The position numbers and the translations under genes are program-made. 64,000 bases of DNA from Maribacter polysaccharolyticus (GTDB lineage Bacteria > Bacteroidota > Bacteroidia > Flavobacteriales > Flavobacteriaceae): the NCBI RefSeq assembly GCF_028882255.1, contig NZ_JARBUY010000007.1:1-64000 (forward strand), written 5' to 3'. Positions within the stretch are counted from its first letter, which is position 1. Every line of letters begins with the position of its first letter. This document shows, in pieces, positions 17,947-58,947 of this stretch. The notes beneath the pieces were generated by a model. That model did no database searches, was not told the DNA's origin, and saw only the letters and a program-made list of their open reading frames with translations.

Positions 17947-19524
17947 ATGGTTGAAACCAATTATTTGGTAATAGGCTCTGGGGTGGCGGGCCTCACCTTT
18001 GCAGTTAAAATGGCCGAAAAACATGCGGCAAGAAAAGTCGTTATCGTTACCAAAGCCGATGCCGATGAATCGAATACCAAGTATGCCCAAGGGGGGATTG
18101 CCGTGGTAATGGACATGAAAGGGGACTCCTTTCAAAAACACATACAGGATACCCTAATAGCGGGAGACGGAATCTGCGATAGGGAAGTTGTTGAAATGGT
18201 CGTAAAAGAAGGGCCACAACGGCTTAAAGAACTGATTGCTTGGGAAGCCAACTTTGACCTGACCGCTGATGGTGGATTTGATTTAGGAAAAGAAGGGGGA
18301 CATTCCGAATACCGTGTGGTACACCATAAGGATGTCACGGGTTATGAAGTCGAAAGGGCCCTTCTGGAACGGGTACATCAGTTGCCGAATATTGAACTGT
18401 TAGCGCATCATTTTGCCATCGATCTGATCACCGATCACCATTTGGGTCCAAAAAAAGGAGATCTGCTTTCCTGTTATGGAGCGTATGTATTGAACCAAAG
18501 AAATGGGGAAATACGGACCATAAAAGCAATAAATACGGTATTGGCCTCTGGAGGTATCGGTAGGGTGTACGGCCATACCACCAACCCGATTATCGCGACC
18601 GGGGACGGTATTGCCATGGCCTATAGGGCAAAAGCGATGGTGCGTGATATGGAGTTTGTTCAATTTCATCCTACGGCATTGTACAATCCTGAAGGAGGAT
18701 CCTACTTTTTGATTTCTGAGGCTGTACGTGGTTTTGGGGCTTATCTGCGCAATAAGGCAGGATACCGATTTATGCCCGATTATGACGCAAGGGCAGAGTT
18801 GGCTTCAAGGGATATCGTCTCCCAAAGTATTGATAACGAGTTGAAGAAAACGGGGGATTCACATGTTTTCTTGGATTGCACCCACTTGGATATGGCTGCA
18901 TTCAAAAAGCATTTTCCCAATATCTACGACAAATGTTTGGAATACCATATTGACGTTGAAAAAGATTGGATTCCGGTCGTTCCTGCCTCACACTACCTAT
19001 GTGGGGGCATCGTAGTCGATAAGCAAGGAAAGACTTCCATACGTAATTTATATGCTTGTGGTGAATGTTCGGGAACGGGGTTGCATGGGGCGAATCGATT
19101 GGCTTCGAATTCCCTTTTGGAAGCCTTGGTATATGCCCATAATATTTTTGAGGATTTAAGCAATGATACGGGGGATTCAATACCATTGGACATCCCGGAT
19201 TGGAACGATGAGGGTACCCGAATCCCCAAAGAACATATATTGATCCAGCATAACCTAAAAGAACTTCAGGCCTTGATGCGGGATTATGTGGGTATCGTTC
19301 GAAGTGACAAAAGATTGCAAAAGGCGGTGGCCCGATTGGATGTGATCTATAACGATATCGAGGAATTATATCGGGAATCGAAGGTCACAACTTCGCTTTG
19401 TGAGCTTCGGAACATGATCAATGTGGCGCATTTGATTATCAGTCAATCCCTAGAGCAAAAAGAGAATAGGGGAGGGTATTTTAATTTGGACCGCCTGGAT
19501 CAGGTCGAAAACCAACTTAGTTAG
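17947..19524 (+). CDS. nadB: L-aspartate oxidase
   Basis: A 525-residue flavoprotein that oxidizes aspartate to iminoaspartate, which NadA uses next. The FAD-binding GSGVAGL is at about 9-15, and the succinate dehydrogenase/fumarate reductase-type motifs TKYAQGGIAV, QFHPTALY and GLHGANRLASNSLLEALV are all present. The C-terminal helical domain is complete. It converges with the first GH17 gene of the PUL and the two coding regions overlap by eight bases, so there is no room for a terminator outside coding sequence. Confidence 0.95.
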   Translation: MVETNYLVIGSGVAGLTFAVKMAEKHAARKVVIVTKADADESNTKYAQGGIAVVMDMKGDSFQKHIQDTLIAGDGICDREVVEMVVKEGPQRLKELIAWEANFDLTADGGFDLGKEGGHSEYRVVHHKDVTGYEVERALLERVHQLPNIELLAHHFAIDLITDHHLGPKKGDLLSCYGAYVLNQRNGEIRTIKAINTVLASGGIGRVYGHTTNPIIATGDGIAMAYRAKAMVRDMEFVQFHPTALYNPEGGSYFLISEAVRGFGAYLRNKAGYRFMPDYDARAELASRDIVSQSIDNELKKTGDSHVFLDCTHLDMAAFKKHFPNIYDKCLEYHIDVEKDWIPVVPASHYLCGGIVVDKQGKTSIRNLYACGECSGTGLHGANRLASNSLLEALVYAHNIFEDLSNDTGDSIPLDIPDWNDEGTRIPKEHILIQHNLKELQALMRDYVGIVRSDKRLQKAVARLDVIYNDIEELYRESKVTTSLCELRNMINVAHLIISQSLEQKENRGGYFNLDRLDQVENQLS

Positions 19525-20461
19525 TCCCTTCTTTAGCCAAAAGTTTTGCCATGACCAATTTGGGGGTTCGATCTACTTTGAACAATCCCCAGTGTTTTTC
19601 AGGTTCATGGGCTTCGGGAGATCCTTTCCACGGTTCATCAAAAGCCTCAAAAACAAAGGTAAGGATACTCGCTTCCGCAGACCAAGTCACCAAATCGTTA
19701 TAATAAATATTCTGATGTTCCTCACTGACATTACTTGGGCAAATACCTTTTCCATTGGAAAAAGTTGTCCAACCCGCTTCGGTGATGACTACAGGTTTAT
19801 GGGGATAGGTATCCGCTACGGCATAATAGTTTTGTTTGGTATATTCCAATGCCTCATGAATGTTCTTATACTCCCACACCGGGTAGGTATGTATCGAAAT
19901 AAAATCGACGGCTTCAACCAAATCCTTTAGTTTGTCGAGCCAAGGAAGGTAGTTTTCGCAAAAGGTCACCGGCTGTTTTGCCCCTTTTTTGATCATTTTG
20001 ACGTACTTGATGACGCTGTCAACAGGGACATAATGGTCTGTCCAATCAACACAAGCTTCATTTCCTGCGGATAACGCGAAAATGATATCGGGAAATTGGT
20101 TGGCCAAATGGATCAATTTTTCGATTTGGGTGCCATTGGTTCTTTTGTTTTTCTCCAGCTGCTCTTCGGAGTATGACCCACCGCCCCATGGGCATCCGTA
20201 ATTGTTCGCCTCTGCTACGATATAGGCCCCAAGCATTACTTTGAAATCAAGTTTTTCTTTTCGGATGACATCCAGGACAATATCGGTATGTTCATCGCAA
20301 TCATACAAACGAAGATATTTCCAATGGTTTTCAAGGATTAAAAGGTCTTCCTTTACCTCTTCATAACTCGGGTAAACACCTCCGGGATTTTGTCCTTCCC
20401 GAAAACCGGAATAGCAAATGGCATTTCCAGGTTCAATATGTAGTGCTTTCGTGTATTCCAT
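19517..20461 (-). CDS. GH17-family glycoside hydrolase without signal peptide
   Basis: A 314-residue (beta/alpha)8 protein of the GH17 type, which cut or rearrange beta-1,3-glucans. The acid/base Glu is in ALSAGNEA (E135) and the nucleophile in VVITEAGW (E228); ISIHTYP and FVFEAFDEPWKG are also family-typical. There is no signal peptide or lipobox, so it should be cytoplasmic. The ATG at 20461 is preferred over an in-frame TTG at 20479. It is the last gene of the PUL, after a similar GH17 gene. The exact activity (exo-hydrolase, endo-hydrolase or transglycosylase) cannot be read from sequence. Confidence 0.85.
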   Translation of the reverse strand: MEYTKALHIEPGNAICYSGFREGQNPGGVYPSYEEVKEDLLILENHWKYLRLYDCDEHTDIVLDVIRKEKLDFKVMLGAYIVAEANNYGCPWGGGSYSEEQLEKNKRTNGTQIEKLIHLANQFPDIIFALSAGNEACVDWTDHYVPVDSVIKYVKMIKKGAKQPVTFCENYLPWLDKLKDLVEAVDFISIHTYPVWEYKNIHEALEYTKQNYYAVADTYPHKPVVITEAGWTTFSNGKGICPSNVSEEHQNIYYNDLVTWSAEASILTFVFEAFDEPWKGSPEAHEPEKHWGLFKVDRTPKLVMAKLLAKEGTN

Positions 20462-20506
20462 GCGACAAGGTGCTGACAAGTGCTTTGATTTAGGGTTATC
20501 GTACTT

Positions 20507-21394
20507 TTAGAATTTAAGCTTTTCATCTTTGTCCCAAAGGCCCCAAAATGCCCCGACATCCCCTTCGGAACCTATTTTCCATGATTCATCAAAAGAAGAG
20601 AAATAGAACATGTCGATACTTTCTTCCTTGGACCACTTTTGTGAATTGAGAAAATATTTTAAAAAGTTTTCGTAAGATGGATGTGCCCCTTCAAGTCCGG
20701 TTCCTTGGCTGGGCCAACCGGTTTCGGTAACAATGACCTTTTTCCCATTGGCGGCTTGAAGTGCTCTTTGGTACATGTCTTTCATGTACAGTAGGGAATA
20801 GTCTAGGTCACAGCCTTCCCAAAAGGGGTAACAGTTGGCTAAAATGACATCACAGGCCTCTGCGATACCCGGGCGATCAACAAACTCATAATAGGCATCG
20901 ACATACCCGACCTGTATATTGGGCAAAGCCTCTTTAACCTGATAGATATAGTCTAGCAATTCTTCCTCGGTCAAATCTCCCCTATACATCACCTCATTAC
21001 CCACTGCAGCGATATCAACATAACCTTCATGGGCCAATTCAATGAGGTTGGCGATTTCTTTTTCATTGGTAATGGGGTCATCTCCCAACCACGCCCCGAC
21101 CAGGGTCTTGAGGCCGTATTCATGGGCGATTCTGGGAATCGCCTCATTGCCTTCGGTACAGGAAAATGAGCGTATCCATTTGGTATAGGGCTTTATGAGC
21201 TGCATGCGCCGTCGTATCTGTGCTTCCGTAATGATATCACAAGGTTTTTGCCCCTCTTCATAAGGACTGAAACAAATGCCGTGCATGCCGCTTTTCAAGA
21301 CCTTATGGCACTCATTTTTTAAATCTTCTGTAGTTTTGCCGGCATAGTCCAAGGTGGCCAATGCCAATTTCTTTTCTTTTCTTACGGATGACAT
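20507..21394 (-). CDS. Second GH17-family glycoside hydrolase without signal peptide
   Basis: A 295-residue GH17-type barrel. It has the acid/base E134 in AAVGNEVM and nucleophile E224 in IVTETGWPS, which is the textbook GH17 motif, and FSSFDESWK near the C-terminus. It opens with KLALATLDYAGK and has no export signal. It differs clearly from its downstream neighbour, so the two are not recent copies. It lies just after the GPH transporter gene, which suggests that it acts on short glucans that the transporter brings into the cytoplasm. Confidence 0.85.
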   Translation of the reverse strand: MSSVRKEKKLALATLDYAGKTTEDLKNECHKVLKSGMHGICFSPYEEGQKPCDIITEAQIRRRMQLIKPYTKWIRSFSCTEGNEAIPRIAHEYGLKTLVGAWLGDDPITNEKEIANLIELAHEGYVDIAAVGNEVMYRGDLTEEELLDYIYQVKEALPNIQVGYVDAYYEFVDRPGIAEACDVILANCYPFWEGCDLDYSLLYMKDMYQRALQAANGKKVIVTETGWPSQGTGLEGAHPSYENFLKYFLNSQKWSKEESIDMFYFSSFDESWKIGSEGDVGAFWGLWDKDEKLKF

Positions 21395-21470
21395 AATCTA
21401 CGAATTATATTGTTTTAGCCTGTATTTAACGATCCAAGTCAATGGGTTAGGGGGTTGGTTCATTTTTATT

Positions 21471-22895
21471 TTATTTTGAATCTGCAATGCGCTTTCGTTC
21501 ATCGAGCAGGGTACGTACTTCATTGGCACGTTCTTCGCTTATATCGTAATTACGCATTACGTACATCGCGATAAGTGTTCCTGCCATAGGGAAAAAGCAA
21601 AAGAAGGCATGGAGTCCGTTTACCGCAGATTGTTGGTCAATAGTAGCGAGGTCGGGGTTAAAGCCGACTATCGCAATGATAAGCCCACTGAGTGCTCCTG
21701 CGATAGCAAATCCAACTTTGACCATCCACCAATAAATTGCGCCAAAAATACCTTCTCTACGTTTGCCGGAATTGAGTTCGTCAATATCTATTACATCCGC
21801 TGTCATGGACATCATAATCGTAAATAAGCTCCCTATTCCAAAAGAAAAGAATGGTAGGCCAATAATATACATCCAAGGTTTACCCGGTACAAAGAGAAAG
21901 TACAACATAATATAACCCAATACCGAAATGGCCTGTGACACCATGAACGCTTTTTTCTTGCCCATTACCGTAGCCATTTTGGCAACAACCGGAATAACGA
22001 TAAAGGTGGTGACCAGAGCCCCTAAACAGCCGAATAATGCGACCCAAATACCGGAGGCGTCGGCATCTCCATTGAATAGTTTATATACAATGACAAAAAA
22101 GGTCAGTGATGCTACGGTATTGAATGCATTGAAAATCAAGAACGTGGCGATACAGATTTCCCTGAATTGTTTTATTTTGAAAGCCGCCTTAAAGCTGTCG
22201 ATGATCTTAATTAAACTACTGCCGATAGTAGATACATTCAAGGGTTCATAATTTTCATTGAGGGTAGATCTACTTTTTATGAATATCGCAGGTACCATGG
22301 CGGAAATCGCGCAAGGTATTGCAACCCATATGGCAAGTTCCCGAACGGCTACATCGGCAGAAGGAAACCATTCAGGGTCGTACATGATAATCCAAAATAA
22401 TGGGGCGATGACCCAAGCCCATTGTCCGATCCATTGTGCTATGGCCATGATATTGGTGCGCTCATGGAAATCATTGCTCATTTCATATCCCATGGCCACA
22501 TAAGGCACACTGAAAAATGTAAGTCCCAAATAAAAAACGATAGACCAGATAAAGAAATACCAAAAATTGTATTGCAGGGAATCTTCGGCATAGAGCTGCC
22601 ACATAAAAATAAAGGCTACGCCCATTAGAAGTCCACCAATGAGAATATACTGTTTTCGTCTTCCCCATTTCGATTTGGTATTATCCGAAATAAAACCCAT
22701 GATCGGGTCTGTGATCGAGTCGAAAATCCTAGGAAAGAAATAGATCAGCGACCACATCCAACCTGGAAATCCTAAATCTTCTACCAAGACAACCATGAAA
22801 ATCCCAAGAATCGCAGGAAACATTTGGTTGGCGAACATACCAATTCCGAAGGCTACTTTTTGCCCGAAGGGGACTTTATTGATCGTTGTTGACAT
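21471..22895 (-). CDS. GPH-family (MFS) sugar:cation symporter
   Basis: A 474-residue inner-membrane protein with about twelve helices. FPRIFDSITDPIMGFISDNTKSKWGRRKQYIL after the second helix is the glycoside-pentoside-hexuronide symporter signature, and the central ADVIDIDELNSGKRREG is the matching motif in the second half. Such carriers move di- or oligosaccharides with H+ or Na+. It lies between GH30 (two bases away) and the cytosolic GH17 pair, so its cargo is probably short beta-glucan from the periplasm. Confidence 0.9.
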   Translation of the reverse strand: MSTTINKVPFGQKVAFGIGMFANQMFPAILGIFMVVLVEDLGFPGWMWSLIYFFPRIFDSITDPIMGFISDNTKSKWGRRKQYILIGGLLMGVAFIFMWQLYAEDSLQYNFWYFFIWSIVFYLGLTFFSVPYVAMGYEMSNDFHERTNIMAIAQWIGQWAWVIAPLFWIIMYDPEWFPSADVAVRELAIWVAIPCAISAMVPAIFIKSRSTLNENYEPLNVSTIGSSLIKIIDSFKAAFKIKQFREICIATFLIFNAFNTVASLTFFVIVYKLFNGDADASGIWVALFGCLGALVTTFIVIPVVAKMATVMGKKKAFMVSQAISVLGYIMLYFLFVPGKPWMYIIGLPFFSFGIGSLFTIMMSMTADVIDIDELNSGKRREGIFGAIYWWMVKVGFAIAGALSGLIIAIVGFNPDLATIDQQSAVNGLHAFFCFFPMAGTLIAMYVMRNYDISEERANEVRTLLDERKRIADSK

Positions 22896-22897
22896 GT

Positions 22898-24394
22898 TTA
22901 TTGGTTTTTAGGTATGACTACCGTTTGTAGGGCTTTTGGCGCTATTATGAATTCAACCGATTTCCCGTTTAATAGTAAACCGATACTTTTTTCTTTTTCG
23001 GTTTCATTAAAAATAACAACCGATATATTCCCATTGGGATTTTCCGCAGCAGTAACCATTAGGTCTTTATCCGAAGTGTCGACTCCTATTACCTTGGCGT
23101 TTGGCCTAATGAATTTACTAAAGTGCGACATCGTAAAAAAGAGCGGGGTAAAATAAACTTCATCGGCCTCAGGGTCTACGATTACAGGTGCAATGCACCA
23201 GTTTTCAAACCAATTGGGTCCCCCTTGCCTATCAAGTACCATATTCCAGTCTACCCAGCCATCGACCCTATTGTTGAGGCAACCGATTATATCCCTTGCA
23301 TAGCGGTTAACTGGGGAATATTTAGGGTGCAGGTGCTTATCTTTTTCCGGAGCCCAGTCCCAACCCCAATCGGTAGCTTCTTTGGACCAGTACCATTTAT
23401 CGTCTTGCCATACGGGGATTTCAGAATCCACGCAAGCTTCTGCTTGTATTAAATATTTGTCGGGCGCTTTGTGATGTGCATACTGCAATTCTTCCGGAAA
23501 AACTTCAAAGGTGCTGGCATACCAATGTATGGCCGTACCTGCGAAATATTTTGAACTGGCCTCATTTCGAAACATTTCATCTACCCATTCCTTTAGGTGT
23601 TCACGATTTTGGTCGTATCCTAAAATTTTTAGATCCCCTTTTCCATCGGCTTCCAATTTAGGTCCTAAATGGTACTCGACGAAGTCGGTCATTTCTTTTG
23701 GGCTAAAATGCATGCTTTCCCAGTTGTTGCCATTGCCAAGAGGTTCATTTTCTACCGTGAAACCCCAAATATCGATTCCTTCATTTTTATAGGCGTCAAC
23801 GTATTTTGAAAAAAACAATGCCCAGGTATCATAGTATTCGGGAAGCAATTTACCCCCAACCCAATTGTTGTTGTCTTTCATCCAAGGTGCTGCCGTCCAT
23901 GGCGAGGCAAAAATCTTAAATCCATCTTCAGAGGCGGCCATTGCATCCTTGATCATAGGGATCAGGTCATCTTTATCTTCTTCGACAGAAAAGTGTTCCA
24001 ATTCTTTATCCCCTTCAATAGGGCTGTAAGAGTAATTGTCCAGTGAAAAATCGCAAGAATTCATATGGGTTCTTGTGAGGGAATAATTGGCCCCTTCTTT
24101 ACTGAAATAAGCATCGATGATTTTTTTGCGATTCTCTTTTCCCATTTGGTTCAGTAGGTAGGCCGAAGATTCGGTAAAGGCCCCCCCAAACCCTGTTATG
24201 GTCTGAAATTGCTCATCGGGATTCAATTTTATCTGTATGGGGTTCCGTACTTCCGGGAATTCCGTAATACGCTTCAATTGGTTGCCCGAAGCGGAGGTTT
24301 CATATACCTCTACCGTTAATTGTTCTTCTTTTTCGTTACAACTTACCATTAGTAGGATAAGTAGGGTTAGTAGGTAGAAACTGTTTTTTATCAT
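22898..24394 (-). CDS. GH30-family lipoprotein (beta-glucosidase/beta-1,6-glucanase type)
   Basis: A 498-residue lipoprotein with lipobox MVSC (Cys 19). The GH30 barrel starts with QTITGFGGAFTES. The acid/base is E217 in TVENEP and the nucleophile is E319 in LIQAEAC. A C-terminal beta-domain follows (VVIFNETEKEKSIGL). GH30 members in glucan loci remove beta-1,6-linked glucose or cut beta-1,6-glucan, which fits laminarin side chains; the subfamily is not certain. It stands between the GH2/GH72-like lipoprotein and the GPH carrier, and it is one of two GH30 genes here. Confidence 0.9.
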   Translation of the reverse strand: MIKNSFYLLTLLILLMVSCNEKEEQLTVEVYETSASGNQLKRITEFPEVRNPIQIKLNPDEQFQTITGFGGAFTESSAYLLNQMGKENRKKIIDAYFSKEGANYSLTRTHMNSCDFSLDNYSYSPIEGDKELEHFSVEEDKDDLIPMIKDAMAASEDGFKIFASPWTAAPWMKDNNNWVGGKLLPEYYDTWALFFSKYVDAYKNEGIDIWGFTVENEPLGNGNNWESMHFSPKEMTDFVEYHLGPKLEADGKGDLKILGYDQNREHLKEWVDEMFRNEASSKYFAGTAIHWYASTFEVFPEELQYAHHKAPDKYLIQAEACVDSEIPVWQDDKWYWSKEATDWGWDWAPEKDKHLHPKYSPVNRYARDIIGCLNNRVDGWVDWNMVLDRQGGPNWFENWCIAPVIVDPEADEVYFTPLFFTMSHFSKFIRPNAKVIGVDTSDKDLMVTAAENPNGNISVVIFNETEKEKSIGLLLNGKSVEFIIAPKALQTVVIPKNQ

Positions 24395-24436
24395 CGTGAA
24401 GCACTTTTAATTTATCAATGAAAATTGTTGTTATGG

Positions 24437-25468
24437 TTAAGGGTGGGTTAGGCCCGTATAGATTTTCTTTATTTCGTAAAAGGTTTCTTTCTTCTTCCTT
24501 TCAATGTCGACAATACCCCAGAACTCCTCATTGGGCGTACCGTCATACGGAACGCCGGTACTATTCGGAGCCCAGCCACCTGGATCTTGGGTTTCCGGAT
24601 TTCCTGCTTTCCACCATCCATCGGTAAAGGAGAACAGGGTTACACCTGAGCAAATATCGGTGTTGTTAAAGACCGCGTTTAAAATGCTTGTATTGGCATC
24701 GGCCTGTGCTTTTTGGTTGTTACCTGCTTCATAACCATCTTTTGTGATGGTCATATAGCTGTCTCCTCCAGCTTCGGACAAATACATGGGTTTAGGGCTA
24801 ATTGCATTCCATTCGGTAAAAATGGAGGAGGGGTCATCAAAACGATAGACGTTCATTCCCCAAACATCGATGTTTTTGGATAAGGACAATGCCAAGGAAT
24901 CGGGTAATTCGCCATGGGCCGTGGCAACCGGATGAGAAAGGTCGTTTTTATGGATAAGATCGGCAGCATTGTCCATGGCCCTATACCAGTTCTTTATATC
25001 GCCTTCAAACCATTCGGGGTGGTAGTTGTACTCATTTCCCAACTCCCAGAATAAAATGGCATCGTGATCTTTATATTTATTTACATAATCGATGAAAGAC
25101 CCGGAGCGTATATCATAAAAACCCCCTTGGTTATACCCGAAACCAATGATCACTTTGATACCCGCAGCCTTAAATCGGTCAAGGACAACTTTATCATCTA
25201 TGGGTTCATAAACCCTTATTGTATTTATACCGGCTTCTGCCATTAAGGCAATATCCTGGGTTAAATTACCAAAGTCCCTTTTTTCACTTCCTTTAGGAAC
25301 GGGATGATAACAGATGCCTTTGATTAGATAAGGGGTTTTGTTGACCAATATTTGACGTCCTGAAACCGAGACCAAATCGCTTTTGGCATTACCGGAACAG
25401 GAAATAAGAATGCCTGTCAAGAGTAATACGATCCCATATTGGAATCCTAATGTGATTTTTTTAATCAT
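24437..25468 (-). CDS. Clan GH-A lipoprotein, GH2-C/GH72-like barrel
   Basis: A 343-residue lipoprotein with lipobox LISC (Cys 24) and a lone (beta/alpha)8 barrel. Catalytic glutamates of clan GH-A type are E146 in WELGNEYNY and E232 in YLSEAGGD. The start VNKTPYLIKGICYHP and AGINTIRVYEP resemble both the GH2 barrel domain and fungal GH72 beta-1,3-glucanosyltransferases (which have GNEV and SEYG). GH2 side domains are missing. Given the PUL, a beta-1,3-glucan hydrolase or glucanosyltransferase is my inference; the family remains open. It lies between GH17 and GH30 genes in the same direction. Confidence 0.8.
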   Translation of the reverse strand: MIKKITLGFQYGIVLLLTGILISCSGNAKSDLVSVSGRQILVNKTPYLIKGICYHPVPKGSEKRDFGNLTQDIALMAEAGINTIRVYEPIDDKVVLDRFKAAGIKVIIGFGYNQGGFYDIRSGSFIDYVNKYKDHDAILFWELGNEYNYHPEWFEGDIKNWYRAMDNAADLIHKNDLSHPVATAHGELPDSLALSLSKNIDVWGMNVYRFDDPSSIFTEWNAISPKPMYLSEAGGDSYMTITKDGYEAGNNQKAQADANTSILNAVFNNTDICSGVTLFSFTDGWWKAGNPETQDPGGWAPNSTGVPYDGTPNEEFWGIVDIERKKKETFYEIKKIYTGLTHP

Positions 25469-25522
25469 ATCGATTATACTTAATGATCACCGGGTATCGT
25501 GAATCAGGGTTCAATGCTGTGT

Positions 25523-26821
25523 TCATTGTTCGGGTTTTTTAATATTACGGGCCATTGGGGGTACCCTAACCGCTTTCATAAGGGCATCCATATCTCCGTT
25601 GTACGTTTTGGTAATCGCTTTTCCGTCTCGGGTCAATCCGTCAAAAGTACCTTCATCCACCAAGTTCCATAGGGGATACTTAGCCTCACTCTTCAAATTG
25701 ATCAATCCGAAATGGTTTTCGGATCCCATAGGATTTTCGGCATCTTTCCATTGTTCATCAAAAGCTTCAAAATAAAAGCAGGAAATACCTTTGGCATTGG
25801 TCCATTCCCGCATATGTTTATAATATAAGCCTTGCTTGTATTCATCGGTAGCCCTGGAGCCGGTAGGGCCATAGAATCCGTCGGACTTCGTAGCCCATCC
25901 GGTTTCGCCGATATGAATGGGTTTGTGCACGCCCAAACTTTTCATATATCCCGAAACACTATCGTATTGTGATTTTGCGAACTGTAGGGCACGTAGCATG
26001 GCCGCATCTATTTTTTCAATATCCGATAGGCCTTCTTCATTTTCCGGTACGCCCCAAAAAGCTGGATTATAATGGGTATTGTGATAGGGGTAGGTATGCA
26101 TGGATATGTAGTCAACCGCATCGATCAATTTTTCAAGATCTTCGGTGTGGTATTCTGCACTGCCGCCACCCCAGGAGGAAAAATCGTCCGAACTGGTTAT
26201 CCATAGCTCTTTGGGTAGCTTGCCTTCTTTTTTTAAATTTTGAAGGTGGGTAACCCATTTCAAGATCACGGCAGGTTGCACATAATAACTGGCGGCCCAT
26301 TTGACCATGGCTTCGTTCCCTACCGCGATTATCTTAACGATATCGGGATATTCGTTCGCCAACCTAACGGCTTCTTCAATTTGCCAAGTATTGGCTTCAC
26401 TTTCCACATTGTGGTCAGGGTCCTTATCTGTCCATGCATTTTTACAATCGATCCAGGCGCCTAGCATGACATACATTTCAAAACCAGGGTCTTTTTGTTT
26501 CAATTCACTAATGGCCTTCAATAAATTGGCTGCCTGTGGTAGGTGCACTTTGTAGGTGCGCACGATTTTTATGCCCATGGCAGACAAAAGCTTCATGTCT
26601 TCTTTGAGTTCATCCAAAGTGGGTTCGATATCGTGGTCTACATGCCTATATCCACCATAGGATATGGCCAGATATTCCGGATTGCCGAGAATATCCTTCG
26701 CACTTTTATTTGCGGTCTCTTTCACAGTTTCGATATTAACTTCTTTCTTCGCATTCTCTTTACATGAAAAAGCCAAAAGCATACATAGCACCAAAAAGCT
26801 GAATTTAACGTGTTCTTTCAT
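25523..26821 (-). CDS. GH17-family lipoprotein
   Basis: A 432-residue lipoprotein with lipobox AFSC (Cys 20). A linker to about residue 48 precedes a GH17-type barrel. The acid/base is E170 in IAVGNEAM and the nucleophile E306 in IGETGW; YISMHTYPY and FEAFDEQWKD follow. It is longer than the two cytosolic GH17 proteins because of insertions in the barrel loops and an about 40-residue C-terminal tail. It probably trims beta-1,3-gluco-oligosaccharides in the periplasm or at the surface. It starts ten bases after the stop of the phosphorylase gene. Confidence 0.88.
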   Translation of the reverse strand: MKEHVKFSFLVLCMLLAFSCKENAKKEVNIETVKETANKSAKDILGNPEYLAISYGGYRHVDHDIEPTLDELKEDMKLLSAMGIKIVRTYKVHLPQAANLLKAISELKQKDPGFEMYVMLGAWIDCKNAWTDKDPDHNVESEANTWQIEEAVRLANEYPDIVKIIAVGNEAMVKWAASYYVQPAVILKWVTHLQNLKKEGKLPKELWITSSDDFSSWGGGSAEYHTEDLEKLIDAVDYISMHTYPYHNTHYNPAFWGVPENEEGLSDIEKIDAAMLRALQFAKSQYDSVSGYMKSLGVHKPIHIGETGWATKSDGFYGPTGSRATDEYKQGLYYKHMREWTNAKGISCFYFEAFDEQWKDAENPMGSENHFGLINLKSEAKYPLWNLVDEGTFDGLTRDGKAITKTYNGDMDALMKAVRVPPMARNIKKPEQ

Positions 26822-26831
26822 TGCTTTGGTT

Positions 26832-30275: not shown

Positions 30276-30398
30276 GTGGTCTACTTTTATTTTATCGTCG
30301 ATGTTTTTTTTGAAAACCCCTTCCGTAATAATTATAGGAAAAGGATTTTTTGTTGTCGTTCAATGTTAGGGCACATCATTAAAAATGCACCGTTTGTT

Positions 30399-31940: not shown

Positions 31941-32004
31941 GGTTTTAATACTTAATGGTTGCTTTCCTTTTTTATTGGCTTTTGGCTTCTATAATTTATG
32001 ACTT

Positions 32005-33519: not shown

Positions 33520-33627
33520 TGTTTTGATATTCGGGTTTAATTTCCGTAAAACCAAATTAATTAATGTAAAGAGCAGAAATACAGTGCATTATACTGAATT
33601 TTTGTCTTCTGTTCCCAAAATAGGGAA

Positions 33628-33659
33628 GAAAAAGGTTAGTTGGGAAACTAACCTTTTTC
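33628..33659 (-). terminator. Strong hairpin between GH16 and GH30 genes
   Basis: A perfect 14-base stem (33628-33641 with 33646-33659) and four-base loop. On the minus strand the stem ends in a T run. It lies 30 bases after the GH16 stop and about 110 before the GH30 start, so it can end or attenuate the susCD transcript. Confidence 0.75.
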
Positions 33660-33689
33660 TTTACTCGAACCGTGATTGGGGTTCGATCT

Positions 33690-35315: not shown

Positions 35316-35339
35316 AAGTACCTTTATTATTTAGACTTA

Positions 35340-37382: not shown

Positions 37383-37400
37383 AATTAAGTCTTTTTGTTA

Positions 37401-38864
37401 TTAATAGCCGTCGTTTTGGGTTAAATTCGAAATATCGATTTCCTGTTGGGGAATGGGGAACACTTCGTGTTTTCCTTCCACAAAACCATCGATAACGTCT
37501 GCGGCTTCACCTGTCCGTACCAAATCGAAGAATCGGTGCCCTTCCATGGCAAGTTCAAAATTCCGCTCGGCCCAAATGGCATCGGTCAAGGTAGAACCTG
37601 TGGCCGTAATATCATGGTCCGTGTCCCCAAAGGCCCTACGTCTGACTTCATTCAAGTATTCCTGGGCCTTAGTATCACTTACGCCCCCTCTATTGTTGGC
37701 TTCGGCAGCCATCAACAATACATCGGCATAGCGGATAGATCTATAGTTGGTGCCATAGTTCAGTTCTGTTTGCGCATCACTTTCCCCGGCTCTAGGAATA
37801 TATTTATGGTTATAGTACCCTGTATGCTCATACCCTTCGGTATAGGAAGCGTCGTTGGCTTCTGCAAAGGCTTCCATATCCAAGATGGAAGCGTCCCTTC
37901 TTGTATCGTTTTCATCATAGGAGTTGTACAGATCTTCGGTAGGTACGTTAAAACTCCATCCGGAAGCATATGTAGGTCCACTGAAACCCCTTGGTCCGTT
38001 ATGTATTATACCATAGTTACCTTCGGTACCTTGAGGGGTGTAACCCCAATCCCACCATTCGGATGCACTTGAATGTTGCACCTCAAAAACGGATTCGGTA
38101 CCATTTTCCCCAGAGGAAAGGAATTGACTGGCGTAATCCGATACCAAAGTATACTTGCCGATTACGTTTTCCAAAACCTCAGCGGATTCGGTAAATTTAT
38201 CTTGGTACAAATACACTTTACCCAGTAAGGCCTGAGCGGCATATTTGGTAACCCTGCCCGATTGACTGACTGTTGTAGGCAATGCATCTATGGCATTCAA
38301 TAGGTCGGTTTCTATTTGCGCATAGACAACCGATGCCTCGGAACGCTCTAAAGTTCCGGAGTCCGATGCTGTCAACCTATATTCGGTAAACAAAGGCACA
38401 TCCCCAAAGAATTTCACCAATTCAAAATAATAGTAGGCCCTAAGGAAGTAAACTTCGCCATAAAGGGCGGCCTTACCGTCAAATTCGAGTTTTTCCTTGT
38501 TTTCCTCTAAGTAATTTGCCCGGTTGATCCCTTCATAACACCACGTCCAAATGGAGGTTAGGTTGTCATTACTGGCATAATGGGTCATATCATCGATTTC
38601 CTGTAAACCGACAACATCCGTGGCACTCTCACCACCACATAATGAATTATCCGATGCAATATCACCGATCAATATATTTAGGTACATCCATTGCAATGGG
38701 TCATAAGTACCCACTACGGCAGATTCATAATCGTCTGAAGACTCAAAATAGATGTCAGCAACGATCTCATAATTTTCTGCAGGGTCATAATCCACATATT
38801 CCGTACAGGAATATGCCGTTACCATCAATAACCCGATTAGCGCTATATTTTTAAATATTTTCAT
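37401..38864 (-). CDS. SusD/RagB family nutrient-binding lipoprotein
   Basis: A 487-residue lipoprotein; the ATG at 38864 puts the lipobox AYSC at Cys 20. SusD marks include DIYFESSDDYESAV near the N-terminus, AALYGEVYFLRAYYYFELVKFFGDVPL in the TPR-like part, and the C-terminal block with YADVLLMAAEANNRGG, YLNEVRRRAFG and IWAERNFELAMEGHRFFDLVR. SusD forms the lid on SusC and helps capture glycan at the outer membrane. It begins ten bases after the SusC stop. Confidence 0.95.
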   Translation of the reverse strand: MKIFKNIALIGLLMVTAYSCTEYVDYDPAENYEIVADIYFESSDDYESAVVGTYDPLQWMYLNILIGDIASDNSLCGGESATDVVGLQEIDDMTHYASNDNLTSIWTWCYEGINRANYLEENKEKLEFDGKAALYGEVYFLRAYYYFELVKFFGDVPLFTEYRLTASDSGTLERSEASVVYAQIETDLLNAIDALPTTVSQSGRVTKYAAQALLGKVYLYQDKFTESAEVLENVIGKYTLVSDYASQFLSSGENGTESVFEVQHSSASEWWDWGYTPQGTEGNYGIIHNGPRGFSGPTYASGWSFNVPTEDLYNSYDENDTRRDASILDMEAFAEANDASYTEGYEHTGYYNHKYIPRAGESDAQTELNYGTNYRSIRYADVLLMAAEANNRGGVSDTKAQEYLNEVRRRAFGDTDHDITATGSTLTDAIWAERNFELAMEGHRFFDLVRTGEAADVIDGFVEGKHEVFPIPQQEIDISNLTQNDGY

Positions 38865-38874
38865 GTCTTTTTTA

Positions 38875-41800
38875 TTAGAATTTAACATTTATACCAAGTG
38901 TCCAAACTCTAGGTTGTGGGTAAGTACCCCTATCAACACCGGTATCCAGTACTGAATCGTCCCCATTGGAAATTTCCGGGTCATATCCCGAATAATCGGT
39001 GAAAACAAAGGCGTTTTTCACTTGACCATAAATCCGTATCTGATCCAAACCATTTTTCTTTACGACATCATCGGGTATTTTATACCCTAATTGGATGTTC
39101 TTGATCTTGATGAAACTGCCGTCTTCTATGTATCTGTCTGAAGCCCTAGTGTTGTTATTGTCATCTACGAAGGTTACCCTTGGTTCGGAATAACTCGTAC
39201 CTTCACCGGTCCATCGGTCCAAAACGGATGCAAAACGGTTCGTATAGTTCAGGTTTCTTTCATAAGCCCTGTAGATATCATTTCCTACAGAGGCGTAGGT
39301 AAATACGTTGAAGTCGAAATTCTTATAATCCAAAGCCAAGTTCCATCCTACCGTAAAGTCGGGGAAAGGATCTCCGATTTCCGTTCTGTCGTCATCATCG
39401 ATTTCCCCATCTCCATTGACATCCACGAAACGGATATCGCCGGGAACAGCGCCATCTTGTGTAGCATGGGCATCGATTTCACTTTGGTTTTGGAAAATAC
39501 CATCGGTTTTGTAACCGTAGAAATATCCTGGGGAATAGCCTTCCTCAAAACGGGTTATATAGGTATAGGGGATACCATAACCTGAACCGTCTATGTATTT
39601 GTTACCGTTGTTGATTTCCTTAACTTCATTGACCGAGGTGGTAAAACTAACATTGGTGCTCAGTTTAAAATTGTCCCCGAACTCGCTATTATAGCCGATA
39701 CTGGCATCAATACCATAACTACTGGTTTTACCGATATTGGTGGTTGGATATTCAGGAGATCCGAGGTATAAAGACAAGGTGGGGTCGAACAATAAATCGT
39801 CTACCGTTTTATTGAAGTAGTCAGCCGATATGCTCAATTTATTATCGAACAATCTGGTGTCAAAACCTATATTGTATTGAATTTGATTTTCCCATGAAAC
39901 ATCTTCATTTGGAATCGTTTCCAAAGTGGATCCACTAGCTATTTCATTACCAAAAGTGTAGGAAGGGAAGGTTGAGATGGTCGAATACTGTGCCTCGATG
40001 TTGTCATTACCGACCGTACCATAACTACCCCTAAGTTTAAAATAGGTCATCACTCCCGGATTGAAGAATTCTTCTTCGGAAACCAACCATCCTAGGGATG
40101 CGGATGGGAAGAACCCGAATTTGTTGTTTTCACCAAAGTTTGTTGAACCATCTATACGACCTGTGAACGACAGTAAATACCTATTCATAAAGTCATAGTT
40201 GATCCTAGTGAAATAGGATATGTTCCTTGTCTCATATTGCCATGAGCTAGAGGTGTCCGATTCTGAATCGGTAGAAGCGGAAACATCTGCGTACTTCCAA
40301 GAGTTAAAAGGAATATCCTCAGCACTTGCGGTGATATTATCCCCGGTATTCTTGCCTATTGCCATACCCAATACCGTTTCAAAAGCATGGTCATCACCGA
40401 TGTTGAAGTTGTAATTGGCGAACATTTCGTAGGTGAAGTTGAAGTAATTCGTTCTGGATTCGGAAACCCTGTTACTATAGAGGTCGGTTTCATTGCCATC
40501 ATCATCCGTGGTGGTTATCGCAGATAGATCTGCATTCGCCGTCGTTGAATTATGGCCTGTTCCATAGTATACCAAGGGGTAAAAATTCTTTGAATATACG
40601 TCTACATAGGTATACCCGAACCTGGAAGTGAACTTCAGGTTGTCCAATACGTCATATTGCAATTCCAATTTCCCGGTGAGCTTGTTGGTGTTGGACTTGT
40701 TATAGGTGTTGGCTATAAGTGCAACCGGGTTTACAATCTCTTGGGTTATCGTTTCACTTACCCCGTAATTACCATCCTCATCATATACGGGAACGGTAGG
40801 ATCCATGTTCAATGCATTTGAAAGAACCCCTGTGATACTGTTTTCAGCGATACTGCTGCCCTTGATGTTGGCATAACTTGTATTGGAGATCAACTTTAAT
40901 TTATCGGTCATATCCGTATCAAAGTTGGCGGTAAAGTTAACCCTGTCGAAGTAGGATTTGTCCCCACCTCCAACAATACCTTCTTGGCTCATATACCCCG
41001 CGGAAACGAAATAAGAGGTAAGTTCACTACCCCCTTGGGCAGATAAATTATGAGTGGTGATCGGTGCCGTTTTAAAGACTTCTTCCTGCCAATCGGTTCC
41101 TTTGCCATAGCCGGATATATCACTGAAAATGATTCCTTCACCGGCATTGGCACTGGCTTCATTTAAAATGGCAACATATTGACTGGCATTCAATACATCG
41201 ATTTTGTTGATTACTTGCTGTAGTCCGTAGGAAGAATTAAGGGAAAATGTCGTCTTGGTGTTCCGTTTACCTGATTTTGTCTTTACAACAATTACACCAT
41301 TACCACCTTTTACCCCGTATATAGCCGATAAAGCGGCATCTTTCAATACGTTGATGGATTCAATATCAGAAGTGTTCAATGAATTCAGGTCATCCAAGGT
41401 TTGCGTAACACCATCGATAACGACAAGTGGATCGGTACCTGTATACGAAGGGATACCCCGTATCAAGACCGTAGGTTTTGAACCGGGAGAACCGGCTCCG
41501 ATAACGTTTACACCGGAAGCTTGCCCTTGTAAGGCGTCATCTGCCCTGACTGCATTGAGTTTTTCGAGATTTTCCCTTTTTACGGTAGAGACCGCACCGG
41601 AAATCTTACTTACTTTTTGCGTACCATAACCAATAACCACCACTTCTTCCAATGCTTCCGCATCTTCGGTCAGTGTCACGTTAATGGTTTGGTTACCACG
41701 GGTCACTACAACCTCTTGGGTTTGGAACCCCAGATAGGAAAAAACCAAGGTTGAGTTAATGGGAACATCATCTAAGGCAAACATACCATCAAAATCTGTT

Positions 41801-41952
41801 GCGGTTCCCTTTGTCGTGTTTTTCACGATAACATTTACACCTGGAATAGGCATGTTACCCGAATCCGATACCGTACCGGAAACATTGGTCGTTTGACCAA
41901 ATGTAAACGATGCGACCAAGAATAATGAGAGAAATAAAATTTTTGACTTCAT
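38875..41952 (-). CDS. SusC/RagA family TonB-dependent outer-membrane transporter
   Basis: A 1025-residue transporter with signal peptide ending TFGQ. A carboxypeptidase-regulatory-like domain covers about 23-100 (VSGTVSDSGNMPIPGVNV). The TonB box region and the SusC signature ALEEVVVIGYGTQ follow near 105-115, then the plug (LIRGIPSYTGTDPLVVIDG, IEVL-like INVLKDAALSAIYG) and a 22-strand barrel ending WTLGINVKF. It imports oligosaccharides with SusD using TonB energy. It is the first gene after the regulator; the 332-base gap upstream holds inverted repeats that could be the control site. Confidence 0.96.
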   Translation of the reverse strand: MKSKILFLSLFLVASFTFGQTTNVSGTVSDSGNMPIPGVNVIVKNTTKGTATDFDGMFALDDVPINSTLVFSYLGFQTQEVVVTRGNQTINVTLTEDAEALEEVVVIGYGTQKVSKISGAVSTVKRENLEKLNAVRADDALQGQASGVNVIGAGSPGSKPTVLIRGIPSYTGTDPLVVIDGVTQTLDDLNSLNTSDIESINVLKDAALSAIYGVKGGNGVIVVKTKSGKRNTKTTFSLNSSYGLQQVINKIDVLNASQYVAILNEASANAGEGIIFSDISGYGKGTDWQEEVFKTAPITTHNLSAQGGSELTSYFVSAGYMSQEGIVGGGDKSYFDRVNFTANFDTDMTDKLKLISNTSYANIKGSSIAENSITGVLSNALNMDPTVPVYDEDGNYGVSETITQEIVNPVALIANTYNKSNTNKLTGKLELQYDVLDNLKFTSRFGYTYVDVYSKNFYPLVYYGTGHNSTTANADLSAITTTDDDGNETDLYSNRVSESRTNYFNFTYEMFANYNFNIGDDHAFETVLGMAIGKNTGDNITASAEDIPFNSWKYADVSASTDSESDTSSSWQYETRNISYFTRINYDFMNRYLLSFTGRIDGSTNFGENNKFGFFPSASLGWLVSEEEFFNPGVMTYFKLRGSYGTVGNDNIEAQYSTISTFPSYTFGNEIASGSTLETIPNEDVSWENQIQYNIGFDTRLFDNKLSISADYFNKTVDDLLFDPTLSLYLGSPEYPTTNIGKTSSYGIDASIGYNSEFGDNFKLSTNVSFTTSVNEVKEINNGNKYIDGSGYGIPYTYITRFEEGYSPGYFYGYKTDGIFQNQSEIDAHATQDGAVPGDIRFVDVNGDGEIDDDDRTEIGDPFPDFTVGWNLALDYKNFDFNVFTYASVGNDIYRAYERNLNYTNRFASVLDRWTGEGTSYSEPRVTFVDDNNNTRASDRYIEDGSFIKIKNIQLGYKIPDDVVKKNGLDQIRIYGQVKNAFVFTDYSGYDPEISNGDDSVLDTGVDRGTYPQPRVWTLGINVKF

Positions 41953-41988
41953 CTGTTAATTTTTGTTAGTTTTTAATTCTTCAGATGG

Positions 41989-42040
41989 AATTCGCATAAA
42001 CAAGGTTTCCTTTTGCGTTGAGAAAGTCGTTATGCGCATT
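41989..42040. promoter_or_regulatory. Inverted repeat upstream of susC, candidate operator
   Basis: AATTCGCATAA at 41989-41999 is the reverse complement, with one mismatch in eleven, of TTATGCGCATT at 42030-42040; 30 bases separate the arms. A further copy of the second arm, TTATTCGCA (8 of 9), is at 42151-42159. They lie about 40, 80 and 200 bases before the susC ATG. No exact TAnnTTTG box is found for susC, as would fit an activator-dependent promoter. Nothing else is seen in 41953-42284. Confidence 0.5.
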
Positions 42041-42284
42041 TCATTTATGATTACTTTTTATTAAGGTAAATTTAACGCCAAGAGTTAAGGATTCCTTAAA
42101 AATGACCACAACAAAAAACATACATCTCAAAAAAAAGAGCTTAAAATGCGTTATTCGCACTTGTTTTCCTTGTAACTTATATAGGTACGCAAGGAATTTG
42201 AAGTTGTTGGAATGCAGCTGATTGGCCTACGAAATCGTTTTTGTATAGGTAATGTTGAGGTGGTGTTGTAGGGGGGTGTATGGC

Positions 42285-45095
42285 CTATAGGTTCAAAATG
42301 TAGTCCGTTAGACCCGATTCGTGTTGAAGCTGCATCTTTTTACGGAGCCTATAGCGCTTTACTTCCACGCTTCGTACCGAAATATTCAGTAAAGGTGCGA
42401 TTTCCTTCGAAGACAGGTTCAATCGCAAATACGCACAAAGCTTTAAATCGTTCGGGGTTAATTCCGGATGTATTTTTTTTATCTTTTTCAGGAAATCTTT
42501 ATCGGCATTTTTGAAGGCCTCTTCGAAAAATGACCAGTCATCTTTGTTGTTGATATTTTGATTGATGGTCCTAATAACCGATTTGATCTTTGGATGGTCG
42601 CCATTTTCTTTTAGCTGGTCCCGGATCATACTTAAAAACTCGTTCTTTTTTATGATGCTCATGGTGGATATGGCCAATTCCCGGTTTTTATTCGCTATAT
42701 CCTGACGCAATTGTTCATTCTTGATTTCTATGATCTTACTTTGTGCCTTTAGCTTTTTTCGCTTTAGCTTTTTGGTGTTTTCCTTAAGAATTTTGGCATT
42801 TTGCCTTTTATAGTACGATTTGTATAATTTATGGATCAGGAAGGAAATTAAAATAAAAGCGAGGATATAACAGGTGATGGCAATATTGGAATAATACCAA
42901 GGTCTTTGGATAACGAAAGGGAAACTCGCTATGTTCTCGGACATACGGTCGCCTATTTTTGATCTTACTTTAAAGGTATAATCCCCAAAACTCAAATTTT
43001 CAAAAGAGATGTCCGGATGCGTGATCCAACTGCTCCATTGGTCGTTAAGTCCCTCAAGTTTGTATTGATAGGTAACTTCCGCGTATTTATCATAGTTGGG
43101 GGAACTGAATGAGAATTCCAGATCGTTCTCCGTATATGCCAATTCTTGTCCAGGGTTCAATGCAATCTCTTCTTGGGGCGCATTTAGGAATTCTTTCTGT
43201 ACCGAGGAAATCCTGATGGTATGTTTTTTGGTTTTGACCTTGTTCAGGTCTAGGAGGGTATAGCCATTAGATCCACCGATCAAATAGGTGTTGTCCTTTA
43301 AATGGGCAATATGCTCAAATCCCGAAATACCGATACTTCGTCTGAATTTCGTGGAAATGGGAACCTTTACCACTTCGGGTGAATTACTGAATTTACCCGG
43401 GGTGGTATATACGATGTTTTTTTCACTGAAACCCCAGAGCCTTTTGTTTTCGGGATCTGGGATTAAAATACCGTTTAAATTGTCATTTGGGATATAGAAC
43501 ATTTTTGAGAGGACGGTATCGGTCTCGAAACCATCTTGTTCGTAATTGTATCTCAGGATCTTTTGATTCGAGTTTTCTGTGTAGTATAAACTGTTATCAT
43601 GAAGGACCAAGCTTGATCCAAACCCATCGGCAGGATCATTTTGCACTTTGAGTATGGTCTTGAAATCGGGATCGACGGTTAATTTATAGATTCCTTTATA
43701 TTCATTGTTAACGATTATCTCATAGGTGTCGATGAATTCGAAAAATCTGCTTGAATAATTGAAACCCTCCAATTTGTTCCTTGGGCGCCATTTCCCGTTT
43801 ACCTTTTCAAGAATATTCAAACCATCATAGTTGCCTTGTAACAATAGGTTGTCATGCCCCTCGATTTTCTTTATATTCCATGTTCCTGTCGATTCGCATA
43901 TGAGTTCCGCAGTTGTATTTTTCACCATATAGGTGCCATTATTATGGCCGCAAAACAAGCTGCCGTCCTGTTCAACCAAACCCCATACTTGCCCTTGGGT
44001 ACCGGCGATCAATCGAAAAGGGTGCTGCGTATTCGCCTCTTTGTAAAAAAGACCTTGGTTGGTGCCTATATATAATAGACCATTAAAAATTTTAGCGGCA
44101 TAAACATTTCCGATCTTTCCCTTAAGATCGTTGTATTCCTTAAATGGGGAGTTGTAGTTGATCACACTTAGACCATTATCCAAACCAAGCCATAGGTTTT
44201 GGTCCAGATCTTCGAACATAGACAGTACAGTGTTGTTGTAAAGTCCTTTTTCTTTATTGATCGCGTTTATGATCTTGCCGGTCTTATCTAGATGGTAAAC
44301 GCCATTGGTTATGCTGCCTAGGGCAAAACTACCGTCACTCAATTGGATACTGCTGAATAATTTTATCGAGGCCAATTCCTGGTCTGCTTCGATATTCCAT
44401 TTTCTTAATCCCTTTTCTTCCAAAAAGTAAAACCCACCTTTCTCCAATAGAAAAAGGAGTTTTTGGTCTTTTTTATAAATCGCGATGACGAGATTTTCGG
44501 CAAGGATCGGGTCATTGGTGAGCGATATCGGATTCCCATTTTTTATTTCAAAAATACCTTCATTGGTTTTTTGGAAAAATACGCTGTTGTCCACATTGAA
44601 AATCTGTGCCCTTGGGGTTTCCGAATCAATGATCGTAAACGATCCATCAAGGGTGTTGTAGCTATAGATACGGTCCAAGGATTGGAATAAAACCCAATCC
44701 CCGACTTTAAGTATATTCCAGAATTGCTCATCATCGATCAGTGGCGTTTCAAGCTTGGGTATCAAAGAATGATAAACAAGTTGGCCGAATTCATTTTTTT
44801 TCCAGTAACCGAATTCCATAAAACATCCGGTATAGACCAAATCATTGATAACCTTTACAGAACGTATAACGGAGCGATTGGGGGAATCATAGAGTTTAAA
44901 ACGCGCGCCATCAAACGTTAACAAACCCGAATTATTGGCGATAAAGATGGTTTTATCCGTGCTCTGGGAAAGCATCCAATTCTGATTGTCGGCCTGGTAG
45001 GTCTCTGGGGGATAGGTAATGATCGGAGGCAGTTCCTGTCCGATAAGATGAATGCTGTTAAAAAGTAAAATTATCAAAAGGGCCTTCAAGTGCAT
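42285..45095 (-). CDS. Membrane-spanning propeller/Y_Y_Y sensor with LuxR-type DNA-binding domain
   Basis: A 936-residue regulator. After a signal peptide (to about residue 20) come beta-propeller repeats such as MLSQSTDKTIFIANNSGLLTF-type blades (about 35-600), a Y_Y_Y (triple tyrosine) domain (about 650-720, with VTYQYKLEGLNDQWS), one membrane helix (about 735-758), a coiled coil (760-840) and a C-terminal LuxR/GerE helix-turn-helix (about 880-936, with NLSSKEIAPLLNISVRSVEVKRYRLRKK). There is no kinase or receiver domain, so the periplasmic signal would reach DNA in one protein. It lies upstream of susC in the same direction and probably controls the PUL. Confidence 0.9.
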   Translation of the reverse strand: MHLKALLIILLFNSIHLIGQELPPIITYPPETYQADNQNWMLSQSTDKTIFIANNSGLLTFDGARFKLYDSPNRSVIRSVKVINDLVYTGCFMEFGYWKKNEFGQLVYHSLIPKLETPLIDDEQFWNILKVGDWVLFQSLDRIYSYNTLDGSFTIIDSETPRAQIFNVDNSVFFQKTNEGIFEIKNGNPISLTNDPILAENLVIAIYKKDQKLLFLLEKGGFYFLEEKGLRKWNIEADQELASIKLFSSIQLSDGSFALGSITNGVYHLDKTGKIINAINKEKGLYNNTVLSMFEDLDQNLWLGLDNGLSVINYNSPFKEYNDLKGKIGNVYAAKIFNGLLYIGTNQGLFYKEANTQHPFRLIAGTQGQVWGLVEQDGSLFCGHNNGTYMVKNTTAELICESTGTWNIKKIEGHDNLLLQGNYDGLNILEKVNGKWRPRNKLEGFNYSSRFFEFIDTYEIIVNNEYKGIYKLTVDPDFKTILKVQNDPADGFGSSLVLHDNSLYYTENSNQKILRYNYEQDGFETDTVLSKMFYIPNDNLNGILIPDPENKRLWGFSEKNIVYTTPGKFSNSPEVVKVPISTKFRRSIGISGFEHIAHLKDNTYLIGGSNGYTLLDLNKVKTKKHTIRISSVQKEFLNAPQEEIALNPGQELAYTENDLEFSFSSPNYDKYAEVTYQYKLEGLNDQWSSWITHPDISFENLSFGDYTFKVRSKIGDRMSENIASFPFVIQRPWYYSNIAITCYILAFILISFLIHKLYKSYYKRQNAKILKENTKKLKRKKLKAQSKIIEIKNEQLRQDIANKNRELAISTMSIIKKNEFLSMIRDQLKENGDHPKIKSVIRTINQNINNKDDWSFFEEAFKNADKDFLKKIKKIHPELTPNDLKLCAYLRLNLSSKEIAPLLNISVRSVEVKRYRLRKKMQLQHESGLTDYILNL

Positions 45096-58943: not shown

Positions 58944-58947
58944 GGTC

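Follow-up and report, generated by a model that had tools for sequence, protein, structure and literature searches.

Laminarin polysaccharide utilisation loci (PULs) of the type called variant 1 were strongly expressed during a North Sea bloom, and the accessible parts of the report describe a fusion of GH17 to a major facilitator superfamily (MFS) carrier in most, not all, of them (PMC10108472). The GH17A-GH30-GH17B part of the Formosa PUL has been assayed enzymatically (PMC6246565), and a Muricauda PUL is described, as far as the available text goes, with a LuxR-type regulator, GH16, GH149 (or GH3) and a 'GH2' in its upstream part, followed downstream by GH17A, GH30_1, an MFS carrier and a signal-less GH17B, in that order (PMC13188888). 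The founding GH149 paper had reported in 2018 that Alteromonadales clusters (type II) hold GH149, a cytoplasmic GH17 and an MFS_2 (pfam13347) carrier, and its accessible sections mention GH3/GH30_1 and GH17/GH16 for Bacteroidetes PULs (PMC5827456). Here we examine a 64-kb window (the whole stretch of DNA analysed) of Maribacter polysaccharolyticus, in which 14 genes, labelled g1 to g14, lie on the minus strand at 19517-45095. The reading that we favour, and hold to be fairly probable as a whole, is that they form a laminarin utilisation locus of the variant 1 kind, an already described type, with one cytoplasmic stage and a split of tasks between two carriers. While the periplasmic steps of laminarin use have been assayed already, the cytoplasmic end has not yet been put together, and the least understood part of the locus is the conserved pair g2-g1, predicted to be cytoplasmic.

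In the pathway so predicted from sequence, the GH16 enzyme (g10) would cut laminarin at the cell surface and the SusC/SusD pair would import the fragments, as their families suggest. In the periplasm, GH30 lipoproteins would remove beta-1,6-linked glucose and GH17A would cut the backbone, as shown for the Formosa enzymes. The GPH-like carrier g3 would then pass short laminari-oligosaccharides across the inner membrane, to be phosphorolysed by GH149 and cut or re-joined by the GH17 pair g2-g1 in the cytoplasm, and the sugar porter g8 would most likely import glucose freed in the periplasm by GH3/GH30-type exo-enzymes.

The assignment to variant 1 draws on a SusC/SusD pair present together with GH16, GH17 and GH30 enzymes, and on GH149 present together with a GH17A-GH30-MFS-GH17B block, in which g5 intervenes between GH17A and GH30. 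The carrier g3 and the GH17 enzyme g2 are separate genes, and we do not take the GH17-MFS fusion as defining. Both the enzyme families and the match to published PULs bear out the proposal of the initial annotation that the substrate is a beta-1,3/1,6-glucan (laminarin), and the families and N-termini bear out its two signal-less GH17 proteins and its two inner-membrane carriers, along with a GH149 that is signal-less too. The split of the last steps, which it had regarded as unusual, is largely in print already, because the Muricauda and Formosa PULs and the 2018 GH149 clusters show such parts. A Pfam/NCBIfam scan of the open reading frames (ORFs) of the window confirmed its list of 13 same-strand genes plus a regulator, all 14 of which are given below.

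19517..20461, minus strand: g1, signal-less GH17, called 'GH17C' (Pfam GH17)
20507..21394, minus strand: g2, signal-less GH17, predicted MlGH17B-type beta-1,3-glucanosyltransglycosylase by its residues (Pfam GH17)
21471..22895, minus strand: g3, GPH-like MFS_2 symporter, probable oligosaccharide carrier (Pfam MFS_2)
22898..24394, minus strand: g4, GH30 lipoprotein, probable debranching beta-1,6-glucosidase, in the position of FbGH30 (Pfam GH30)
24437..25468, minus strand: g5, lipoprotein with a GH2/GH158-like TIM barrel, without family placement (Pfam GH2_C)
25523..26821, minus strand: g6, GH17A-type endo-laminarinase lipoprotein (Pfam GH17; PDB 6fcg)
26832..30275, minus strand: g7, GH149 beta-1,3-glucan phosphorylase, signal-less by inspection (NF058639)
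30399..31940, minus strand: g8, sugar-porter MFS protein, XylE/GlcP-like, possible glucose carrier (Sugar_tr)
32005..33519, minus strand: g9, second GH30 lipoprotein (Pfam GH30)
33690..35315, minus strand: g10, GH16 lipoprotein, probable surface endo-glucanase (Pfam GH16)
35340..37382, minus strand: g11, PKD-domain lipoprotein, probable glycan-binding protein (PKD domain)
37401..38888, minus strand: g12, SusD-like protein (PF07980, 108.2 bits)
38875..41952, minus strand: g13, SusC-like TonB-dependent receptor (family profile match)
42285..45095, minus strand: g14, Y_Y_Y-domain regulator with a weak LuxR-type helix-turn-helix (family profile matches)

Because the gaps from g1 to g13 measure only -14 to 134 bp, these genes likely form one transcription unit; the gap between g13 and g14 is 332 bp. 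Two ORFs were listed with TTG starts, g1 (19517-20479, TTG at 20479) and g9 (32005-33555, TTG at 33555); the listed start of g1 is probably too early, an ATG at 20461 being the better candidate, and g9 probably begins at the internal ATG at 33519. Signal peptides and lipoboxes were judged by reading N-termini: no signal peptide was visible in g1, g2 or g7, and lipobox-like N-termini were seen in g4, g5, g6, g9 (from the internal ATG), g10, g11 and g12. Among orthologs, a crude lipobox pattern was present in 34 of 39 for g4, 9 of 13 for g5, 32 of 54 for g6 and 0 of 3 for g9, and in none of 50 for g2 or 8 for g1. The GH149 equivalog profile NF058639 matched g7 with 1818.8 bits (cut-off 1150), g6 aligned with PDB 6fcg (FbGH17A, a crystallised endo-laminarinase) at 610.6 bits across residues 9-429, and the helix-turn-helix match of g14 lay just under its cut-off.

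Joint occurrence of GH149, g2 and g1

We followed the genes through 149 genomes of the window's family and through sets of loci. For the first set, 60 stretches were fetched and 9 left out (5 upstream extensions and 4 without GH149 on the contig), giving 51 loci plus the window; the held-out set comprises all 87 of 87 fetched GH149 loci from the same family, with some genera in common with the first set. A further set, the named loci, was built on the best 80 of 585 relatives of g1 (63-83% identical), which range from Flavobacteriaceae to Bacteroidales, Chitinophagaceae, Saprospiraceae, Balneolaceae and two betaproteobacterial bins.

Relatives of g2 occurred in 44 and GH149 in 51 of the 149 family genomes, and 43 of the 44 had both (Fisher 4.7e-28), the sole g2 genome without GH149 being 82% complete; 8 GH149 genomes, one of them from the window's own genus, were without g2. 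Orthologs of g1 (at least 63% identity, window included) were found in 9 family genomes, in all 9 directly after g2, as was also the case in 8 of 8 held-out instances and in 74 of the 80 named loci. The named loci held g2 in 78 cases, a GPH-like gene in 73 and GH149, within the fetched stretch, in 56. In 14 of these 56, among them loci of Labilibaculum, Marinifilum and Carboxylicivirga, g2 comes immediately after GH149. A GPH-like gene is present in 13 of the 14, the porter stands immediately upstream of GH149 in 4, and a remoter MFS gene (<38% identical) occurs in addition in 9. The co-occurrence of g2 with GH149, the place of g1 directly after g2 and the adjacency of GH149 and g2 suggest that the three form one cytoplasmic stage.

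These data bear on the proposal of the initial annotation that two parallel cytoplasmic routes exist, each with its own carrier, g8 feeding GH149 and g3 feeding the two GH17 enzymes, perhaps with linear as against branched oligosaccharides. In the window the gene immediately upstream of GH149 is indeed g8, and the one before g2 is g3; moreover, g2 could conceivably attack oligosaccharides whose other end is blocked to GH149. Yet g2 accompanies GH149 almost wherever it occurs, and the direct GH149-g2 adjacency, mostly in loci with a GPH-like gene, speaks against two routes kept apart, while leaving room for more than one carrier.

A second g1-like gene (45-49% identical) directly follows g1 in 10 of the 80 named loci, including L110 (downstream of 10001-10921) and loci of Labilibaculum, Marinifilum and Carboxylicivirga. 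A contig labelled as a Klebsiella pneumoniae metagenome-assembled genome (L111) holds a typical laminarin block g4-g3-g2-g1 and is probably a mislabelled bin. Two bins labelled betaproteobacterial (L165:9030-10942; L169:9962-10927) have g2-g1 after a GH16-like gene, with no GH149 in the fetched stretches, hinting at transfer or misbinning.

Proposed tasks of the two carriers

The profile Pfam MFS_2 matched g3 with 208 bits, far above its cut-off, and TIGR00792 (GPH) with 180.6 bits, below its cut-off of 231.35, hence our term 'GPH-like'; the score against MelB was 63 bits. With further g2 or unnamed genes passed over, g3 lies upstream of g2 in 37 of 39 and 57 of 62 g2-bearing GH149 loci (first and held-out sets, in this order here and below), and carrier and GH17 are fused in 7 of 39 and 15 of 62. 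ORFs of ~790 aa that matched g2 were considered as glycosyltransferase fusions, a label that we rejected, as they are carrier-GH17 fusions. Several relatives have a protein of ~205-212 aa after the GPH-like carrier (e.g. L060:6036-6653), and the one that was scanned had no Pfam match.

The porter g8 scored 372.7 bits against TIGR00879 (sugar porter SP family; cut-off 237.8), and its nearest solved structures include XylE, GlcP, STP10 and GLUT1. It can be aligned with XylE and GlcP through the FQQ..GIN and GPV.W stretches, which presumably have a role in sugar binding. Between two aligned blocks (query 341-408), g8 (30399-31940) has ~60 residues more than XylE, which has a short loop there.

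A GPH gene is present in 43 of 51 and 77 of 87 GH149 loci and the porter in 16 of 51 and 21 of 87. When the 52 loci of the first set and window were compared post hoc, GH3, a second GH30 or GH158 was found in 13 of 17 loci with g8 versus 1 of 35 without it. With thresholds fixed before the held-out loci were fetched, the same link appeared there, in 17 of 21 loci with g8 versus 6 of 66 without it (p=8.7e-10). Where a g9-type GH30 was found, it almost always neighboured g8 (3 of 3 and 10 of 11 cases, 13 of the 14 relatives in all). Because the porter thus tracks extra exo-glucosidases or GH158 within the family, the simplest reading, which the sequence similarities of g8 suggest as well, is that it may serve as a carrier for glucose freed in the periplasm. 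Should the link hold beyond the family, it would be useful for predicting the carrier of glucose.

Several observations count against this division of labour or against the single cytoplasmic stage. Among the 56 GH149-bearing named loci, most of them more distant, the link between porter and exo-enzymes was not significant (3 of 7 with g8 versus 10 of 49 without; p=0.33), and it may hold within the family only. Loci without a visible GPH gene have the porter more often than the others (6 of 8 versus 10 of 43, p=0.008; held-out 7 of 10 versus 14 of 77, p=0.0014), although two of the six porter-only loci of the first set sit on short contigs. In 4 named loci g8 lies directly upstream of GH149-g2-g1, and in some species it may carry oligosaccharides or serve GH149 directly. 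The GH30 enzyme g4, too, should free glucose in loci that are without the porter, and other beta-glucosidases may take part, the window's genome having 10 GH3 matches, none of them on the window's contig. GH149 was not seen in 24 of the 80 named loci; many of these are cut by contig ends, and five (L104, L113, L136, L152 and L165) are >20 kb.

Given the porter enrichment in GPH-less loci, some carrier modularity is real. It is also here that the proposal of two parallel routes finds some footing, as 11 of the 13 GH149 loci with the porter and no visible GPH gene are also without g2 (6 of 6 and 5 of 7). The resemblance of g8 to monosaccharide porters and the higher frequency of GPH genes than of g8 in GH149 loci speak against it, and together with the company that g2 keeps with GH149 they leave it, in our judgement, unlikely. 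We therefore retain one cytoplasmic stage, with g3 as the probable oligosaccharide carrier and g8 as the putative glucose carrier.

The predicted cytoplasmic pair g2-g1

MlGH17B removes laminaribiose from the reducing end of laminari-oligosaccharides of at least four units and re-joins the remainder by a beta-1,6 bond, and its Tyr136, Trp191 and Glu192 are tied to transfer in the accessible text of the study (PMC11005184). Residue columns were taken from g2 in our alignment and matched by eye to the MlGH17B motifs of that text (PMC11005184). Both catalytic Glu residues and the equivalents of Tyr136, Trp191 and Glu192 are present in g2, which also matches RmBgt17A (PDB 4wtp) with E=1.5e-35. By its residues g2 is thus predicted to be a transglycosylase of the MlGH17B type. 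Across g2-type sequences the Tyr is kept in 191 of 200 (Leu in 9) and the Trp and Glu in 200 of 200 each, counts that are not independent, since the family, held-out and named sets share some contigs; the catalytic acid is missing in one of the 200. The Tyr was found in 9 of 41 carrier-fused GH17 domains, and the Glu in 8 of 166 GH17A proteins.

The equivalent of Tyr136 was found neither in g1 of the window, which has Val, a residue typical of hydrolases, nor in any of 97 g1-type sequences (Val in 95, Ala in 2), all 97 of which keep the Trp and the Glu; 12 remoter relatives of g1 have Val as well. Since the Tyr tied to transfer is replaced while Trp and Glu are kept, hydrolysis in the cytoplasm, with recognition of the reducing end, is the likelier role of g1. 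Its best PDB match is 6fcg (124 bits), and Foldseek likewise placed 6fcg (FbGH17A) first for its AlphaFold2 model (predicted local distance difference test score, pLDDT, 87.9), followed by RmBgt17A (4wtr/4wtp). In a GH17 tree g1 clusters with GH17A rather than with g2 (support 0.998), a grouping that depends on the midpoint root, with a support of only 0.085 for the GH17A clade. Our literature searches on g1-type GH17 proteins found no study of them. This conserved, seemingly unstudied enzyme, beside one of a type that forms new beta-1,6 bonds, marks a distinct gap that is open to testing.

It is possible, if on balance improbable, that g2 and g1 are plain cytoplasmic hydrolases that shorten laminari-oligosaccharides for GH149, transglycosylation being an effect of high substrate concentration in vitro. 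FbGH17B, 53% identical to MlGH17B, is described in the accessible text as an exo-hydrolase yielding glucose (PMC6246565, PMC11005184), GH149 enzymes are reported to be able to degrade the substrates written G2 and G3 (PMC6484121), and neither g1 nor most carrier-fused GH17 domains have the Tyr; yet the near invariance of the transfer residues in g2-type sequences suggests selection for transfer.

Another alternative, a cytoplasmic beta-glucan store in which GH149 runs in reverse, g2 adds branches and g1 trims a laminarin-like reserve, would follow the logic of glycogen metabolism, of which a phosphorylase with a branching enzyme is reminiscent. MlGH17B gives beta-1,6-branched products up to a degree of polymerisation of 26 (DP26), for which the authors, in the parts available, suggest a storage role (PMC11005184, PMC13188888), GH149 is described as working in the synthetic direction too (PMC6484121), and g1 and g2 have no signal peptide. 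Against this stand the location of the genes in a SusCD uptake operon and the presence of GlgB, which the window's genome has, as do 33 of 44 genomes with g2 versus 50 of 105 without it. Because GlgB is thus retained, we see no sign of a beta-glucan store replacing glycogen, and we regard such a store as very improbable.

A further proposal, which we put forward as a long shot, is that g2 and g1 would act as a so far undescribed two-enzyme cytoplasmic machine for beta-1,3-glucan, conserved across several Bacteroidota classes. Together with GH149 it would keep imported laminarin in a buffering, branched pool inside the cell, in the way that MalQ/MalP handle maltodextrins. Here g2 would cut laminaribiose off the reducing end and re-attach the rest through beta-1,6 bonds, g1 would also cut at that end but transfer nothing, and GH149 would work from the opposite end.

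Remaining genes and comparison with described loci

The lipoprotein g5 matched Pfam GH2_C with 33 bits, over the cut-off, and GH72 under the cut-off; it is conserved (24 sequences, mean column identity 68%). Foldseek placed its model (pLDDT 85.0) nearest to GH2 enzymes, then GH157 and GH158. We considered and rejected GH158, since g5 gave only a partial match of 37 bits to the GH158 structure 9oro, versus 285.9 bits against GH158 structures for a GH158-like protein of a relative, and since GH2 enzymes came first in Foldseek. Related laminarin PULs have a 'GH0', a protein outside the classified families, next to GH149 in the accessible part of the report (PMC10108472), and g5 may be that protein. 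Many laminarin loci of relatives have, upstream of GH16/GH149, a protein of ~1040-1080 aa with a weak GH2_C barrel match (e.g. L036:14699-17836), which is absent from the window.

Both g4 and g9 are glucosylceramidase-like GH30 proteins, 33% identical to each other; PDB matches of g9 are the SsrB-activated GH30 protein 2wnw and glucosylceramidase, and g4 has the position of the GH30 in the Formosa and Muricauda PULs, as far as these are described. At its C-terminal end, after the PKD-like domains, g11 (35340-37382) has a nearly exact internal repeat of ~140 residues, probably duplicated binding modules. Elsewhere in the window, a second carbohydrate cluster (55384-60978) comprises a GH97 and two proteins of the GFO/IDH/MocA type, of which one carries a C-terminal GH109 domain.

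Set beside the variant 1 PUL of Formosa sp. Hel1_33_131 and bloom metagenome-assembled genomes, as it appears in the accessible text (PMC6246565, PMC10108472), the locus shares GH149, GH17A, GH30, GH16, SusCD and a GH17B accompanied by an MFS carrier. It differs in that its GH17B (g2) is a gene of its own, unfused to the carrier, and in having an extra g1 and an extra GH30-porter pair, of which the available parts of these papers make no mention. With the Muricauda PUL (PMC13188888) it has in common a LuxR-type regulator, GH16, GH149 and 'GH2', and the ensuing succession of GH17A, GH30_1, MFS and a GH17B that is signal-less. Whereas GH30_1 is predicted to be cytoplasmic there, its counterpart in the window is lipoprotein-like, and the window adds a second predicted cytoplasmic GH17, of which the accessible portion of that report makes no mention. 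The Alteromonadales type II clusters, as described in the available text (PMC5827456), likewise combine GH149, a GH17 in the cytoplasm and a carrier of the MFS_2 type. As for the enzymes themselves, g2 resembles the beta-1,3-glucanosyltransferases MlGH17B and RmBgt17A in having both catalytic Glu residues and the Tyr/Trp/Glu set, from which g1 departs by its Val at the Tyr position, on the motifs given in the accessible text (PMC11005184).

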